Assembly (NCBI RefSeq): GCF_016765775.1
Contig: NZ_JAESVN010000001.1
Span: 434,001-498,000, forward strand
Direction of reading: 5' to 3'
DNA: 64,000 nt
From: Szabonella alba
Lineage (GTDB): Bacteria; Pseudomonadota; Alphaproteobacteria; Rhodobacterales; Rhodobacteraceae
Of this stretch, positions 9,100 to 36,857 are shown piece by piece. Numbering within the stretch: position 1 is the first letter of the stretch; each line of letters begins with the position of its first letter. The notes beneath the pieces are model-generated. The model did no database searches and had not been told where the DNA came from. It worked only from the letters and a program-made list of their open reading frames with translations. The translations under genes and the position numbers were made by a program.

Positions 9100-9798
9100 T
9101 CAGGTTGCGCTGCCCTCGGGCGGGCAGGCGGGTTGCGGGGCGGAAAACGGGGTGTCGCCCAAGCCTTCGGCAAGGGCGGCGTCCCGGACAGCGGCACGCT
9201 GCTCGGTCCGGCGGCAAAGATCAAGCAGGGTCGGGAAGTCGGCAGCGTCGAACCAGCGCGTCTGACCGGCGGGATAAAGCACCGACCAACGCATCAGCGT
9301 ACACAGATAGATCGTCAGCACCGAGGGGGCTGCAAAAAGCGCCGGATGATCGGCGCAGGCGCGCTCCATCAGGGCGAAATGCTGCAAGATCCGGGCCGAG
9401 GTGATGGCGTGATGACCGGCAATCGCCCCGGGCGGCACCTGCGTTTCGGGATAGAACAACTGCCGCAGATCGGCATGCAGGCTGTTGGACAGAAAGAACA
9501 GCCATTTCAGGAAATCGCCCCGGGCGGGGCTGTCCGGGGCGGGGCCCAGCCCGGCGGCAGGGTGGCGTTCCGCCAGCCACAGCAGGATGGCCCCGGTTTC
9601 AAAAATCGGGCCCTGCGGCGTTTCCAGCACCGGGATCCGCCCGGTCGGTGCCAGCGCGCGATAGGCGGGTTCCGTCTGCGCGCGCCGACGCCGGTCAACC
9701 AGCCGCGTCGTGAACGCCGCACCCGCCTCGGACAGCGCGATCCGCACGATCAGCGAGGCATTGTCGGGGGCGTAATGCAGGACATAGGCAGTGGTCAT
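9100..9798 (-). CDS. Glutathione S-transferase family protein
   Basis: The 232-residue product has an N-terminal thioredoxin-like half (YVLHYAPDNASLIVRIAL, then TGRIPVLETPQG and the cis-Pro and ETGAIL signature near 56-70) and an all-helical C-terminal half, typical of GSTs. It may conjugate glutathione or act as a reductase; the substrate is unknown. ATG 9798 follows AAGGGA at the correct distance; an upstream in-frame Met is less likely. It precedes sdaA by seven bases in the same direction. There is no Cys at the usual active-site turn, so it is not an omega or beta Cys type by inspection. Confidence 0.85.
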   Translation of the reverse strand: MTTAYVLHYAPDNASLIVRIALSEAGAAFTTRLVDRRRRAQTEPAYRALAPTGRIPVLETPQGPIFETGAILLWLAERHPAAGLGPAPDSPARGDFLKWLFFLSNSLHADLRQLFYPETQVPPGAIAGHHAITSARILQHFALMERACADHPALFAAPSVLTIYLCTLMRWSVLYPAGQTRWFDAADFPTLLDLCRRTEQRAAVRDAALAEGLGDTPFSAPQPACPPEGSAT

Positions 9799-10237
9799 CG
9801 GCGTTCCCTTCCCGTGCAACCCCGCCAACCGGGGCCACACGGCAGCAGTGTCTCGCGCGCAGCAGAGCCCGGCGGGGCGCGGGATGCAAGCGGCGGAAGC
9901 GACCTTTCGCCACCGGCGGCGACGCGGGCGCGTTGCAGCAGGGCCGGGCAGGTGGGCTTTCCGTCCCTTCGCCGCATTCTGCGGCTAAGCCCCGAAGATC
10001 TTTCGGCCAGGGTGAGGGGGGCAGACTTTCATCTTTGCCCAAATACCTCCGCCGGAGGCAACCGCCGTCCGGGGCCGGGCGCGCGGGCCGGAAGGGAGAG
10101 GGCAGACGCAAAGGGCAGAGGCAAATTGCCCCCTCGCGCCCCGGCGGGGCTTTGCCTATAAACACCGGGCCTGCAGATGCGGGCAAGCCCGAAGCCCGAC
10201 CGAAGTCTGCCCGAAGCCTGATTGCCGGAGATCCGCC
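9799..10237. other. 439-base intergenic region with no gene
   Basis: The region separates the divergent GST and rpiA genes. It contains one copy of the dispersed AAATACC repeat (10029-10062). A TATAAA at 10157-10162 may be the -10 of an rpiA promoter, but I find no good -35 at 16-18 bases from it. The open frames that cross it overlap real genes and lack ribosome binding sites. Confidence 0.6.
10029..10062 (+). repeat. Dispersed intergenic repeat, copy A
   Basis: The sequence CATCTTTGCCCAAATACC is followed by the 6-1-6 palindrome CCTCCG-C-CGGAGG (10046-10058). It matches, in reverse orientation, the stretch found inside soxD (49342-49374), and shares the AAATACC core with 49000-49065 and 54001-54055. 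Confidence 0.8.
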
Positions 10238-29505: not shown

Positions 29506-30690
29506 TCAGAACCCGGCGCCGCCAAAGCTGCGGGGCGCCGCGTCGATCACCACCATCTGGTTGTTACGGATCTGTGCCACGGCAAGGCCGCGCTCGTTGC
29601 TGCCATCGCCGCGCAGCCGGAAGATGCCGTTGACCCCGACAAAGCCCGAGCCTTGCGTCAGCGCGGAACCGGTCAGCGCATTGGACTGCCCGTTCTTGAC
29701 CAGCGCGCCGATGGCCGCAATCCCGTCATAGGCCAGCCCCGAAATCGGATGCGGCGCTTCGCCGAAAGCGGCCTGATAGCGCGACTGATACTGCTGATAG
29801 AGTGCCGGATCGGGCAGCGCGAACCAGCCGCCCTGCGTGCCCGGCAGCGACAAAGTGGCCGCCGGAATGTCCCAGCGGGTCAGGCCGATGAACTGCGCCA
29901 CGGACGTGTCGATGCGGTTGTCGCGCAGCATCTGCGTCAGCATCGGCAGCGCACCGGCGGTATCGGCGGTCATGAAGACCGCATCGGCCTCATTCGCGCG
30001 GATCTGGGCCGCAATCTGCGGCGCGGCCTGCACGATGCCGTTCTGCGAAAACTCATAGCCGACCGTTCCCACGACTGACCCGCCCGCATTGGCCACCCCG
30101 CGCTGGATCGCGGCGCGCCCGATCTCGCCTGCGGTGTTGCGGTCATGCACGACCATCACCCGGCGCTTGCCCTGCCGCGCCGCGTATGAGGCCAGCCGGT
30201 TCGCCGTGTTCTGGAAGGTCGGGCCGAGGACAAAGACATTGCCCCCCGCGATATCGGTATTGTTCGAGAAGCTCAGCACATTGATGCCGCGTCCGGCCAG
30301 CGCCACGCCCGCGGCATTGGCCTCTTGCGCAAAGACCGGCCCCAGCACGATCTTCGCGCCCTCATCGGCGGCGCGGATCGCCATGGCCTGCGCCTGACCG
30401 GGCTGGCCTGCGGTGTTGTAGACCCGCAGGTCGATGCGGACATTGCCCAGATCCGAGATGGCCAGACGCGCCGCATTCTGCAGCGAGCGGGCCAGCAGTT
30501 CATCGCTTGCCTGACCCGAGCCGGCCGGAACCAGCAGGGCGACGGGAATCGGCGCATTGGTGTCGATGGCCGGGCCGCGCGATGAGGCGACGGGCTGGCA
30601 GGCGGCCAGTGCGACCACCCCGAGTGCCACGGCAGCCCGCCCGATATGGCGGCGCAGGGTCTTGTGGGTACGGGTGAAAATGGACAACAT
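29506..30690 (-). CDS. LpoA-like lipoprotein, penicillin-binding protein activator family
   Basis: The 394-residue precursor has a lipoprotein signal ending LAAC (Cys31) and a type I periplasmic-binding fold (IPVALLVPAGSGQ, then GAKIVLGPVFAQEA, RRVMVVHDRNTAGEI, and AYDGIAAIGALV). This is the pattern of the C-terminal half of LpoA, the outer-membrane activator of PBP1A, and of alphaproteobacterial proteins annotated as penicillin-binding protein activators. The TPR half of E. coli LpoA is absent. The start ATG 30690 gives an ideal lipoprotein signal. It is divergent from rsmI (87 bases), an arrangement conserved from enterics to alphaproteobacteria, which supports the call. Direct PBP activation is not proven. 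Confidence 0.85.
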   Translation of the reverse strand: MLSIFTRTHKTLRRHIGRAAVALGVVALAACQPVASSRGPAIDTNAPIPVALLVPAGSGQASDELLARSLQNAARLAISDLGNVRIDLRVYNTAGQPGQAQAMAIRAADEGAKIVLGPVFAQEANAAGVALAGRGINVLSFSNNTDIAGGNVFVLGPTFQNTANRLASYAARQGKRRVMVVHDRNTAGEIGRAAIQRGVANAGGSVVGTVGYEFSQNGIVQAAPQIAAQIRANEADAVFMTADTAGALPMLTQMLRDNRIDTSVAQFIGLTRWDIPAATLSLPGTQGGWFALPDPALYQQYQSRYQAAFGEAPHPISGLAYDGIAAIGALVKNGQSNALTGSALTQGSGFVGVNGIFRLRGDGSNERGLAVAQIRNNQMVVIDAAPRSFGGAGF

Positions 30691-33194: not shown

Positions 33195-34715
33195 TCAGCC
33201 CTGACCTGCCCGCCCGATGGCCAGCCGGAAGCTGACCGCCTCGGCGATATGGGGTTTGCGGATCGCGGGCGCGCCCTCCAGATCGGCAATCGTGCGCGCG
33301 ACGCGCAGGATTCGGTGATAGCCGCGCGCTGTAAGGCCGAATCGTTCCGCCACCAGCGTAAGCAGCGCCCGCCCCTCGGCATCGGGGCTGGCGATCTCAT
33401 CCAAAAGCGCGCCTTCGGCTTCGGAATTGACGCGCACCGGGGCATGGGCGGCAAAACGCGCTGACTGGATCTGCCGCGCTTTCGCGACCCGTTCGGCGAT
33501 CTGCGCCGAGGGTTCGCCGCTGGCGGGCAGGTCAAGATCCTGAAAATCCACCGGCGGCACCTCGACCCGCAGATCGAACCGGTCCATCAGCGGACCCGAG
33601 ATGCGGCCCAGATAATCCTCACCGCAGGCGGGAACGCGGGCGCAGGCGCGCGCAGCATCGGCCAGATAGCCGCATTTGCAGGGATTGGCCGCCGCGATCA
33701 GCAGAAAACGGCAGGGATAGCGGATATGGGCATTGGCCCGGGCAACGACCACCTCACCGGTCTCGATGGGCTGGCGCAGGGTTTCCAGCACGGTGCGGGG
33801 AAATTCGGGAAATTCATCCATGAACAGCACGCCATTATGCGCAAGGCTGATTTGGCCGGGCCGCGCGCCCCGGCCCCCGCCGACGATTGCCGCCATCGAG
33901 GCGGTATGATGCGGCTCACAAAACGGTCGCGCGCGCGAGATCCCGCCTTCGGTCAGCAATCCGGCGAGAGAATGGATCATCGAGGTTTCCAGTGCCTCGG
34001 GCGCCGAAAGCGGTGGCAGGATGCCCGGAAGCCGCGCGGCGAGCATGGATTTCCCCGATCCCGGGGCGCCGACCAACAGCAGGTGATGCCGCCCCGAGGC
34101 CGCGATTTCCAGCGCGCGCTTGGCCCGTTCCTGTCCTTTCACATCGCGCATGTCGCGTGCGAAAGGGGGCAGCGCGACCTCACCCGCCTCGGCGGGGGCA
34201 ATCGGGGCCTGACCGGTGAAATGGCGCAGCACATCCGACAGCGTGGCCGCCCCCAGCACCTGCGTCGCCCCCACCCATGCCGCCTCTGCCCCGCAGGCGG
34301 CGGGGCAAAGCAGCGCGCGGTCGGATTCAGCAGCGGCAAGGGCGGCGGGCAGGGCGCCCGCAACCGGCATCAGCCGCCCGTCCAGCGACAATTCCCCAAG
34401 CGCCACGACAGAGGCCGCCGCATCACGCGGCAGCACATCCAGCGCGCAAAGCAGCGCCAGCGCGATGGGAAGGTCGAAATGCGAGCCTTCCTTGGGCAGG
34501 TCGGCAGGGGCCAGATTGACCGTGATCCGCTTGGCAGGCAGGGCAATCGACATCGCGGTCAGGGCCGCGCGCACCCTTTCGCGCGCTTCGCTGACCGCCT
34601 TGTCGGGCAGGCCCACGATGCTGAAGGCTGGAAGGCCCGCCGTGACCGCGCATTGCACCTCGACCTGCCGCGCCTCCACCCCTTCAAAGGCGACCGTAAA
34701 GGCGCTTGCGATCAT
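33195..34715 (-). CDS. comM: YifB/ComM family AAA+ ATPase
   Basis: The 506-residue protein has the N-terminal Lon-protease-like (ChlI) domain starting VEARQVEVQCAVTAGLPAF, a central AAA+ Mg-chelatase module with Walker A GAPGSGKSM (about 217-225) and Walker B VLFMDEF, and a C-terminal winged domain (RGYHRILRVARTIADLE). ComM is a hexameric helicase that drives branch migration of DNA taken up during transformation, in Vibrio and others. It is present in many bacteria not known to be competent, and no competence gene is in this window, so a general recombination role is possible. Starts at ATG 34715 and stands alone. Confidence 0.92.
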   Translation of the reverse strand: MIASAFTVAFEGVEARQVEVQCAVTAGLPAFSIVGLPDKAVSEARERVRAALTAMSIALPAKRITVNLAPADLPKEGSHFDLPIALALLCALDVLPRDAAASVVALGELSLDGRLMPVAGALPAALAAAESDRALLCPAACGAEAAWVGATQVLGAATLSDVLRHFTGQAPIAPAEAGEVALPPFARDMRDVKGQERAKRALEIAASGRHHLLLVGAPGSGKSMLAARLPGILPPLSAPEALETSMIHSLAGLLTEGGISRARPFCEPHHTASMAAIVGGGRGARPGQISLAHNGVLFMDEFPEFPRTVLETLRQPIETGEVVVARANAHIRYPCRFLLIAAANPCKCGYLADAARACARVPACGEDYLGRISGPLMDRFDLRVEVPPVDFQDLDLPASGEPSAQIAERVAKARQIQSARFAAHAPVRVNSEAEGALLDEIASPDAEGRALLTLVAERFGLTARGYHRILRVARTIADLEGAPAIRKPHIAEAVSFRLAIGRAGQG

Positions 34716-34768: not shown

Positions 34769-35638
34769 TTACGCCCGGTAAATGGCCATGAAGGCGGGCC
34801 AGGCCTCGGGGTCGGCGGCGGTCTTGTCGCGGCAGAAGGCGTTGCAAAAGCCCCAGACGCGTCCGCCTGCTTCCAGAAAATGCGTGACCGGATCGCCGGA
34901 ATAGGGGCAGGCGGCATTGACGGATGGGCCGCTTTCCACCGCGCGTGCAGGCAGCGGGGCGGCGGCGGGCCAGGGACGCTGTGGCCAGTCGCGCCGATAG
35001 AAGGGTTGGTCCGGCCCCTCAACCCGCCCCATCGCGCGCCAGCGCCGCAAGGCCGGATCGGCCAGATGCGCCGCGACATACTGCGCCGCCTGCGGTCCGA
35101 CCGGCAGGTTATAGGTCGCAATACGCGTCGCGACCGGGGCAAAGAACACATCCGCTGCCGAATACTCGCCGCAAAGCCAGGGGCCGGGGGATCCGGTCTG
35201 TGCCCTTGCCCAGCCCCAGATCTGTTCCAGCCGCGCCAGATCGGCCAGCACGGGTTCAGGCGGGTCGCAACGCTCATAACTGCTGCGCAGGTTCATCGGG
35301 CAATGACTGCGCAGCGCGCCAAAGGCTGCATGCATTTCCGCCGCAAGCGCACGGGCCACGGCGCGGGCCTTTGCATCCTGCGGCCAGATCCCGGCCAAAG
35401 GGTGGCGCGAGGCCAGTTCCTCGGCAATGGCAAGGCTGTCGGGGATCACCGTGCCATCCTCAAGCCGCAGGGCAGGCACGCTGCGGGCGGGCGCGAAATC
35501 GCGCAGAAGGGCGGTGAAGTCATCGGAATAAAGCCGCACTCGGCGGGTGGTGACAGGGATGCCGAAGGCTTCGAACAAAAGCCAGCCGCGCAGGGACCAG
35601 CTGGAATAGCTGCGATCACCGATGGCGAGTTCATACAT
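34769..35638 (-). CDS. Glutathione S-transferase with C-terminal TRASH-like Cys motif
   Basis: Residues 1-80 are a thioredoxin-like GST domain (RSYSSWSLRGWLLFEAFGIPV, then VPALRLEDGTVIPDSLAI with the cis-Pro and the D-S pair), and about 90-205 the helical GST domain. A Pro/Ala-rich linker leads to the last 47 residues, where C244, C265 and C269 are spaced C-X20-C-X3-C, exactly the TRASH/YHS metal-binding pattern (CPYSGD ... GFCNAFCRD). The fusion would tie glutathione chemistry to metal binding; that is inference. The 289-residue length fits the fusion. ATG 35638 is chosen over upstream in-frame codons because the family begins MYELAIGDRSYSSW. It is monocistronic; convergent neighbours are absent. 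Confidence 0.82.
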   Translation of the reverse strand: MYELAIGDRSYSSWSLRGWLLFEAFGIPVTTRRVRLYSDDFTALLRDFAPARSVPALRLEDGTVIPDSLAIAEELASRHPLAGIWPQDAKARAVARALAAEMHAAFGALRSHCPMNLRSSYERCDPPEPVLADLARLEQIWGWARAQTGSPGPWLCGEYSAADVFFAPVATRIATYNLPVGPQAAQYVAAHLADPALRRWRAMGRVEGPDQPFYRRDWPQRPWPAAAPLPARAVESGPSVNAACPYSGDPVTHFLEAGGRVWGFCNAFCRDKTAADPEAWPAFMAIYRA

Positions 35639-35718: not shown

Positions 35719-36285
35719 TCACGGAATGTGATTGATCCGCGCCGCAGCCCAACCCTGTGGGCCAAGGGTCAGCTCGGTCAGGGAAAGCGGGTCGATCCGA
35801 TGGGCGAAGGCCTCATAGGGCGTGATGCCAAGGGCGCGCTGTACCTGCGTCAGGATCACCCCGAAATGGGCCACAAGAATCAGATCGCCCGCATGGGCCG
35901 TCAGCAGGCGGTCAACGCATGCATTGACGCGGGCACCGACCGCGTTCCAGCTATCGCCGCCCGGCGGGGCAATGTCGCCGGGCCGGTCCCAATAGGCCCG
36001 CAGATGGTCCTGATCGGCAATCTCGGCATGGTGCTGCATCTCCCAGTCGCCGAAATGAATCTCGCGCAGGGCGGGGTCGGGGGGCAGGCGGAGGCGGTTC
36101 CCGGCAATGGCATCGGCGGTGGTTACCGCGCGCTGCAGATCGGATGAGATGACGGGAACCTGCGGCAGGGCCGCCGACAGCCGGGCAAGGGCGGCAAGGT
36201 CGGACAGATCGGCGGGCAGGTCGGTCCAGCCCACCAGCGCGCGGGCATGGGTCGGCCCGTGGCGCAGCCAGAAAAGCCGTCTCAT
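35719..36285 (-). CDS. Histidine phosphatase, probably alpha-ribazole phosphatase
   Basis: The 188-residue protein has the phosphoglycerate-mutase-like phosphohistidine motif LRHGPT (residues 7-12, His9), the second Arg in SSDLQRAVTTA, the acid region REIHFGDWE and the second catalytic His in LVAHFGVI. Its start codon overlaps the cobU stop (ATGA), so it is co-translated with the cobinamide kinase. That context suggests it removes phosphate from alpha-ribazole phosphate in cobalamin assembly (CobC). Sequence alone cannot separate it from other small histidine phosphatases, so I leave the symbol blank. Confidence 0.8.
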   Translation of the reverse strand: MRRLFWLRHGPTHARALVGWTDLPADLSDLAALARLSAALPQVPVISSDLQRAVTTADAIAGNRLRLPPDPALREIHFGDWEMQHHAEIADQDHLRAYWDRPGDIAPPGGDSWNAVGARVNACVDRLLTAHAGDLILVAHFGVILTQVQRALGITPYEAFAHRIDPLSLTELTLGPQGWAAARINHIP

Positions 36286-36857
36286 GCCGTTCCCGTCCCT
36301 GTCCCTGTCTCGGGGTCTTTCAGCCACAGCGGCAGGCCCGCGACCACCACCGCAACCCGCCCGGCCTGCGCCGCCAGCCGCTGGTTCAGCCGGCCCTGTT
36401 CATCGCGGAACTGCCGCGCCAGCGCGTTTTCCGGCACGATGGACCATCCCACCTCATTCGTGACGATGACGACCTCTGCCGGAGATTGTTTCAGCGCGTC
36501 CAGCAGGTGTCCGGTTTCCGCGCTCAGATCGCGCCCCGCCAGCAGGATATTCGTCAGCCACAGCGTCGCACAATCGAGCAGCACCGCCGAACCGGGGGCG
36601 ACATCGCTCAGCGCGCCCGCCAGATCCAGCGGTGCCTCGATGGTCTGCCAGCCCCCTGCCGCGCGGTCGGCGCGATGGGCCGCGATGCGGGCGCGCATTT
36701 CGTCATCCCGGCCTTCGGCGGTGGCAATATAGACCTTCGGGCGGGCCATGGCCCGCACCAGACCCTCCGCAAAGCGTGATTTGCCCGAACGGGCCCCGCC
36801 TGTCACCACTGTCAGACGGTCCGGCGATCCCTGATGCGAAATATCTGCGTTCTGCAT
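36282..36857 (-). CDS. cobU: Adenosylcobinamide kinase / guanylyltransferase
   Basis: Bifunctional enzyme that phosphorylates adenosylcobinamide and then adds GMP to make AdoCbi-GDP in the lower-ligand branch of vitamin B12 synthesis. The 191-residue protein has Walker A GGARSGKS (20-27), the active His region (YIATAEGRDDEMRARI, AAHRADR), and LLDCATLWLTN. It ends in a Gly-Thr run (TGTGTGTA). ATG 36857 is preceded by GAGG. It is divergent from rpoH across 119 bases and overlaps the downstream phosphatase. No other cob gene lies in the window, so the main cluster is elsewhere. Confidence 0.93.
   Translation of the reverse strand: MQNADISHQGSPDRLTVVTGGARSGKSRFAEGLVRAMARPKVYIATAEGRDDEMRARIAAHRADRAAGGWQTIEAPLDLAGALSDVAPGSAVLLDCATLWLTNILLAGRDLSAETGHLLDALKQSPAEVVIVTNEVGWSIVPENALARQFRDEQGRLNQRLAAQAGRVAVVVAGLPLWLKDPETGTGTGTA

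Follow-up and report, generated by a model that had tools for sequence, protein, structure and literature searches.

Putative glutathione transferases of the Rhodobacteraceae carry a conserved three-cysteine C-terminal domain indirectly related to YHS/TRASH treble clefs

The closest described relatives of the domain reported here are YHS/TRASH proteins, among which PMC4626032 names the ribosomal protein L24e and toluene-4-hydroxylase. According to the same paper, L24e binds cadmium via four cysteines in the crystal, the YHS domain of toluene-4-hydroxylase crystallised without metal, and adenylyl cyclase YHS domains have their first cysteine replaced by aspartate and keep three cysteines. In the adenylyl cyclase of M. 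phlei, copper activates the enzyme through its C-terminal YHS domain (PMC4626032). Here we describe a putative glutathione transferase (GST) that ends in a related kind of domain, encoded in the window, by which we mean the whole 64,000-nucleotide stretch of Szabonella alba DNA that was analysed. An earlier note on this DNA had proposed a GST fused to a C-terminal C-X20-C-X3-C, TRASH-like domain and knew of no characterised example; open-licence PubMed Central full-text searches likewise returned no paper that we recognised as describing a GST paired with a YHS/TRASH-type tail. To our knowledge, few enzymes with a YHS-type domain have been tested for metal control, and GSTs have seldom been linked to metal sites. 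Each part of the protein is of a known kind; the novelty lies in having a GST as partner, in the C-x2-S knuckle and in how far the fusion has spread through one family. The gene, its parts and its immediate neighbours are as follows:

33195..34715, minus strand: comM / YifB-family AAA ATPase, the next gene downstream on the same strand (TIGR00368, E 7.8e-156)
34769..35638, minus strand: 289-aa putative GST ending in a YHS/TRASH-related domain, ATG at 35638
34955..35638, minus strand: GST domain, residues 1-228; closest solved folds 4jbb, 4mp4 and 3bby
35594..35605, minus strand: S12-S13-W14-S15, putative glutathione-site motif, by conservation across tailed and tail-less rows
35021..35056, minus strand: last GST helix, residues 195-206, with a proposed docking face around R198, A202 and M203 (model and conservation)
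34919..34954, minus strand: linker, residues 229-240, variable in the alignment, with a strand at 231-234 in the model
34772..34918, minus strand: tail domain, residues 241-289 (49 residues), with a C-x2-S knuckle and a predicted hairpin (253-264) and helices (267-275 and 281-288)
34907..34909, minus strand: C244, in 78/78 and 103/103 tailed rows
34898..34900, minus strand: S247, invariant serine (78/78 and 103/103), by motif in the place of the second knuckle cysteine of L24e
34844..34846, minus strand: C265, in 78/78 and 103/103 tailed rows
34832..34834, minus strand: C269, in 78/78 and 103/103 tailed rows
35719..36327, minus strand: upstream neighbour, a cobC-like histidine phosphatase resembling alpha-ribazole phosphatase (His_Phos_1, E 3.8e-36; TIGR03162, E 1.9e-29, under its cut-off)

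The start codon of the GST gene is preceded by AAAGGA at a gap of six bases. Between window positions 30646 and 40468 lie rsmI, yraN, gshB, comM, the GST gene, the cobC-like gene, cobU, genes for an rpoH-type sigma factor and a ChaN-like protein, coaBC and dut; parts of this neighbourhood recur among the 80 loci that were kept from the 82 found in our search for whole-protein relatives with six search patterns. A cobalamin link via cobC/cobU was considered and dropped, with a cobC match near 40 of these 80 loci as against 30 of 40 loci whose GST lacks the tail. No metal-related gene context was found at tailed loci, at tail-less loci or in the window neighbourhood. The window also holds a second GST-like open reading frame (9100-9840, minus strand, 246 aa); GST_N_2 matches it, but it lacks a tail of the CPYSG type. 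There are ten GST_N_2 matches in the window's genome and a single match to a profile of the tail. A Pfam model search of that genome found no YHS protein at E 0.001, and since Pfam YHS is also blind to the window's own tail, other relatives of the tail kind can be excluded only by the tail profile.

Searches of Pfam, NCBIfam and PDB sequences with the whole protein detected the GST part alone. GST_N_2 covers residues 11-77 (E 3.4e-14; 53.7 bits against a Pfam cut-off of 25), GST_C_2 stays under its Pfam cut-off (19.5 vs 24.9 bits), and NCBIfam PRK15113 matches at E 1.7e-11, below its cut-off. The predicted fold has the thioredoxin-like N domain and helical C domain of a cytosolic GST, and a VIA search with the whole model, whose list speaks to the GST part only, was headed by 4jbb (Z 22.6), 4mp4 (Z 21.6) and 3bby (Z 21.3); we take 3bby to be YfcF of E. 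coli and 4jbb a YfcF-kind GST of K. pneumoniae. Residues S13, W14 and S15 are present in 103/103 distinct tailed and 40/40 tail-less rows, S12 in 100 and 40 of them, and W14 and S15 in 26/26 rows from other families (L208-L233; our tree places L208 within the family clade). P55 hardly varies among tailed, tail-less and outgroup rows, and D/E67 and S/T68 are conserved; the roles of S12-S15, P55, D/E67 and S/T68 at the glutathione site are presumed from zeta-class GSTs. The GST that had looked intact at first sight keeps that appearance across all three groups of rows, and by predicted fold and conserved glutathione site the protein is a glutathione transferase, of putative activity.

At three loci (L076, L078 and L081) a tail is missing from every frame, and these were dropped from the tailed alignment, leaving 77 loci plus the window, or 78 rows. 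The window protein has exactly C244-X20-C265-X3-C269, which lies within the C-X19-22-C-X3-C spacing given in the earlier note, and the three cysteines, N241, S247, G263, N266, R270 and D276 are each present in 78/78 tailed rows. A larger set of 103 distinct tailed sequences keeps the cysteines, N241, S247, N266, R270 and D276 in 103/103 and W280 in 101/103. Mean entropy is 0.80, 0.54 and 0.64 bits in the tail blocks 241-250, 261-270 and 271-280; the blocks 251-260 (1.50 bits) and the end 281-289 (1.92 bits) are more variable, and values exceed 1 in 17 of the 23 ten-residue blocks that precede the tail. One of the six search patterns, WGFCNAFC, falls inside the tail and biased the search toward tailed loci; the sample of 198 genera described below was drawn without it. 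Given its conservation in 78 tailed proteins, the cysteine triad is not a product of chance, and the fusion of a GST to a C-terminal C-X20-C-X3-C domain is borne out. That the tail might be a frameshift artefact was rejected because it is conserved across genera.

Pfam found no match in the tail of the window protein (the gathering score of PF04945 was not reached), and among 30 tail members three matched YHS and two matched L24e, at a best E of 0.028. Searched against the PDB, a profile of the tail retrieved just two matches, both weak and both to cytidine deaminases (E 0.17 and 0.72), which we read as a common CPYS motif. What the tail profile matched in genomes was of three kinds: further cases of the GST fusion, frames that are short or stand-alone-like, and long frames (795-947 residues). 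The short frames read N-x2-C-P-[WF]-S-G ... FCN-x2-CRD (E 1e-15 to 5e-8 per genome), with serine at the S247 equivalent in every short CPxSG frame inspected. The long frames inspected read DPVCGM ... FCxxxC and have ATPase-like YHS segments at E 1e-7 to 9e-4; by eye, we take them for P-type ATPases. Profile comparison scored the tail against the stand-alone proteins at 99.0% (E 2.2e-18, 42% identity over 48 columns), the tail against the ATPase YHS at 97.9% over 30 columns and the stand-alone proteins against the ATPase YHS at 96.9% over 41 columns; because the segments compared (7 stand-alone, 13 ATPase) were motif-picked from tail-profile hits, with E-values per single comparison, these figures describe the link between tail and YHS more than they test it and are not independent. 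The independent link is the Pfam YHS matches of the stand-alone proteins themselves: two of the seven pass the YHS cut-off, one of them through two summed copies, four more match below it (E 7e-6 to 0.009), and the last has a match to a TRASH model alone (0.011). Judged by sequence, the tail domain is thus related to YHS/TRASH treble clefs indirectly, via the stand-alone proteins.

The finding points to a family of small CPWSG proteins, with five of the seven examined below the Pfam YHS cut-off and no useful NCBIfam match for any of the four searched. A GST of the window protein's family was absent from the fetched stretch of about 12 kb at 12/12 stand-alone loci (six frames; neighbours judged by eye). 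A plasmid search with one stand-alone protein gave no match; with the whole window protein it gave 98 records, one of them covering at least 80% of the query. At L126 (5917-6339), as in L098, two tandem stand-alone CPWSG domains share one frame of about 140 residues. In another locus, L100 (G473:C38), a CPWSG domain closes an open frame of 318 residues; what precedes it looks acetyltransferase-like by eye, and this is possibly a second kind of enzyme fusion.

The knuckle of the tail reads C-P-Y-S-G, so that a cysteine is kept and an invariant serine stands three residues on. It can be laid on YHS in two registers. By motif and by Pfam coordinates read with the ATPase DPVCG motif, S247 falls on the YHS cysteine; by ungapped profile alignment, the single knuckle cysteine of the stand-alone relatives fits DPVC. 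The C244-C265-C269 spacing may or may not match TRASH position for position, and C244 is perhaps not the first TRASH cysteine. Of the original assignment to TRASH/YHS, the kinship stands through the stand-alone link and the fold model; the window's tail goes unrecognised by Pfam YHS, and the knuckle is a C-x2-S variant.

AlphaFold, supplied with 45 family rows, modelled the whole protein at a mean pLDDT of 96.7 and a pTM of 0.92, with the tail's hairpin (strands at 253-257 and 260-264) and its two helices (at 267-275 and 281-288) scoring pLDDT 97-98; the tail alone gave 89.5 and 0.66. Foldseek with the tail ranked toluene monooxygenase hydroxylases best (E 0.11, probability 0.97), followed by L24e, and found nothing at E 0.001. 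VIA returned 3rng_A (Z 5.1, rmsd 2.6, 45 aligned), IscB 9liq_A (Z 5.0, rmsd 2.2, 48 aligned) and L24e at about 3.2; a Foldseek E near 0.1 and a VIA Z of 5.1 lie in the range where unrelated folds also occur. These weak fold matches agree with the chain of sequence comparisons because toluene-4-hydroxylase and L24e are both named as YHS/TRASH proteins (PMC4626032). Of the YHS-like treble clef, for which the earlier note had suggested structure prediction, the model shows a predicted hairpin and helices; the best PDB matches are YHS-containing hydroxylases and L24e, at E 0.1 or worse and Z at most 5.1, and the fold may thus be a treble clef.

Across 198 genera of the window's family, represented by one genome each, the tail profile matched 81. 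By our reading of the rows, 75 of these are GST-type (E 1.4e-16 or better), one is stand-alone (G014, L236) and five are weaker, in frames of 405-883 residues. The full alignment search gave a GST match at E 1e-40 in 137/198 genera, and close tail-less orthologs, counted from the rows, occur in 55/198 (E 1.6e-74 or better); 40 of these 55 loci were fetched and all 40 examined, and the tail is absent from each in any frame. In the class sample, a GST match at E 1e-30 was obtained in 81/190 genomes, three of them tailed (two of the window's family and G306), and in the class sample searched with the tail profile 18/337 matched (three GST-type, nine short or stand-alone-like and six weak, five of which look like ATPases). 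In the phylum sample the profile matched 19/249, of which five are GST-type, four stand-alone-like and ten in frames of 804-947 residues (six of the ten inspected); these samples overlap. With both domains in one chain in 75/198 family genera, the GST-tail fusion is a family trait found in dozens of genera.

The tail is present or absent at one and the same locus. ComM lies beside the GST on the same strand at 68/80 loci of whole-protein relatives and at 36/40 tail-less loci, counts in which some loci stop at contig ends. Truncation by error is an unlikely origin of the tail-less genes because no tail occurs in any frame at the 40 loci and comM follows in 36 of them. A quick tree of 97 selected rows, in which 39 of 92 inner branches stay open, implies at least 13 changes of tail state, and well-supported branches force five of these. 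L059, placed in the family clade's unresolved base, carries the two additional residues that are typical of the stand-alone proteins; this fits a single early capture of the tail followed by many losses. Four Ruegeria tailed GSTs (L065, L068, L071 and L077) are nested in a tail-less clade of the GST tree; this placement suggests that the tail end was regained or transferred, or else that their surroundings lost it many times, and the tail may have been gained through transfer, in Ruegeria for instance. Interruptions of the fused gene occur in two genomes (L234 in G183 and L235 in G044): a frame change right where the last GST helix begins, and an in-frame stop in the GST.

To compare the GST domains, we took the 57 columns that are at least 93% conserved in the 103 distinct tailed rows and divided the 40 tail-less rows into 16 outside the main tail-less clade of the tree and the other 24. 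The columns most relaxed without the tail are M203 (0.94 in tailed rows, 0.06 in the 16 scattered tail-less rows and 0.08 in the other 24), R198 (1.00, 0.19 and 0.46) and A202 (0.98, 0.56 and 0.71); no other column falls below 0.79. Helix 195-206 holds five of the 57 columns, and the top three would all lie inside it by chance in 10 of 29,260 draws, a figure that is only a guide as the rows are mutually related. Position 203 is E in 18/40 tail-less rows vs M in 97/103 tailed rows, position 206 is K in 13/40 vs V or A in 92/103, and this 203/206 face seems to lie buried where the tail is present and to be exposed where it is missing. Among the 26 rows from other families, 17 have Q or K at 198 and 15 have A at 203. 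R198 and M203 are both present in six Ruegeria-type tailed rows, four of which are nested in a tail-less clade. An independent-pairs test on 99 rows (positions 198, 199, 203, 206, 67, 68 and 35) had R198 following the tail in 3.3 and M203 in 3.4 of four supported pairs, with 0.0 and 0.1 against, and V/A/I206 not tracking it (0.7 of four); with only four pairs on well-supported branches, this test cannot reach significance. The glutathione-site residues show no change without the tail in the 103 tailed and 40 tail-less rows. As R198 and M203 drift when the tail is missing and the glutathione site stays fixed, the tail probably docks on the last GST helix, a placement drawn from sequence and model confidence and not from contacts. 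The DP-AWP end is conserved in fused tails and not in the aligned stand-alone proteins, which makes D276 and W280 candidates for the tail side of the contact.

The best explanation, to which we give a probability of about 45%, is a GST with an acquired, docked treble clef that holds one metal and makes the enzyme metal-tuned. The GST C-terminus would have acquired a YHS/TRASH-related treble clef of about 49 residues, most likely from the stand-alone alphaproteobacterial family of about 60 residues, and the treble clef would pack on the last GST helix (residues 195-206). C244, C265 and C269 would most likely hold one metal ion, whose fourth ligand would be S247, a water molecule or a small thiol; metal occupancy would shift helix 195-206 and so tune the enzyme. 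The copper-activated YHS adenylyl cyclase offers a precedent for such tuning (PMC4626032). The fusion, its conservation, the kinship with YHS, the presence or absence of the tail at one locus and the co-variation of the last helix are shown here. Metal binding by the tail itself is putative and likely; we infer it, as we do the docking contacts, the identity of the metal and the regulation, and the predicted metal control of the GST through the tail may operate. Counting against this explanation, S247 by motif removes a cysteine that YHS, TRASH and L24e keep, the YHS domain of toluene-4-hydroxylase, our best solved match, crystallised without metal (PMC4626032), and the gene context gives no pointer to metal. 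The matched orthologs with and without the tail, mostly at one locus and in dozens of genera, make the effect of the tail on the GST directly measurable.

The main rival is a purely structural zinc, bound once, that would hold the small domain together and stabilise the GST or its dimer without any sensing. It would account for the invariant cysteines, the compact predicted domain and the apparently fixed docking face, and L24e, which in the ribosome carries a metal on four cysteines (Cd in the crystal; PMC4626032), speaks for it too, but it sits less well with a knuckle that holds one cysteine and not two. The GST moreover persists without the tail in 55/198 sampled genera and so its fold does not need it, and we consider a structural zinc somewhat unlikely. 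A tail that is metal-free in the cell, serving as a docking or protein-interaction module with redox-active or glutathionylated cysteines, strikes us as improbable. The metal-free crystal of the toluene-4-hydroxylase YHS domain (PMC4626032) and the break that S247, by motif, makes in the usual four-ligand set speak for such a tail, and a GST would be a natural source of glutathionylation; yet the C-X20-C-X3-C set is kept in 103/103 tailed rows, and the three cysteines recur in the aligned stand-alone relatives, although 7 of those 13 rows had been selected with a motif containing these same cysteines.

The earlier note's own idea, that the pairing could deliver or sense a soft metal bound to glutathione or bring glutathione to a metal site, which we read as a metal such as Cu(I) passing to or from the tail, gained no specific support and is improbable: both parts are intact in one chain, soft metals are well served by a site of three cysteines, and glutathione synthase lies near 56/80 loci of whole-protein relatives, but this gene also lies near 7/40 tail-less loci (fetched with shorter flanks) and in the window runs on the other strand towards comM, the glutathione-site residues are the same in tail-less rows, the tail is dispensable for the GST (close tail-less orthologs in 55/198 genera), and a partner recognised by Pfam YHS at E 0.001 is absent from the window's genome. 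We also entertain, as a long shot, that S247 leaves the triad permanently one ligand short and that the GST provides the missing ligand: glutathione, either free or loaded with Cu(I), Cd(II) or Hg(II), would fill the coordination sphere of the docked tail. If true, the protein would be a glutathione-gated soft-metal sensor or buffer, and we know of no description of a GST acting as one.

Set beside known systems, the tail has its N-x2-C-P-[YWF]-S-G ... FCN-x2-CRD core in common with the stand-alone CPWSG proteins of Alphaproteobacteria (such as L096, L101, L114 and L236). These proteins are about 60 aa long, have a knuckle-hairpin stretch two residues longer and lack the conserved DP-AWP end. 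YHS domains (PF04945), as found in Cu-ATPases and in the adenylyl cyclase of M. phlei, are likewise small, with an FC[NS]xxC helix motif and a hairpin plus helix, and that of the cyclase is likewise C-terminal and fused to its enzyme by a short linker (PMC4626032). Unlike them, the tail has a C-x2-S and not a D-x2-C knuckle, is sub-threshold in Pfam, and has a GST as its partner, in a fusion that extends across many genera of one family. With TRASH and ribosomal L24e it has in common a knuckle and C-x3-C at a helix and, by its predicted model, possibly a treble clef; it differs from the four cysteines of L24e (PMC4626032) in having, by motif, an invariant serine as the second, and from both in lacking a nucleic-acid-binding or regulator partner. 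With the YfcF-kind GSTs (3bby and 4jbb), finally, the protein has in common its predicted fold (Z 21-23) and a serine-type glutathione site, as do its tail-less orthologs, whereas the window protein adds a C-terminal domain and the tailed rows fix R198 and M203 in the last helix.
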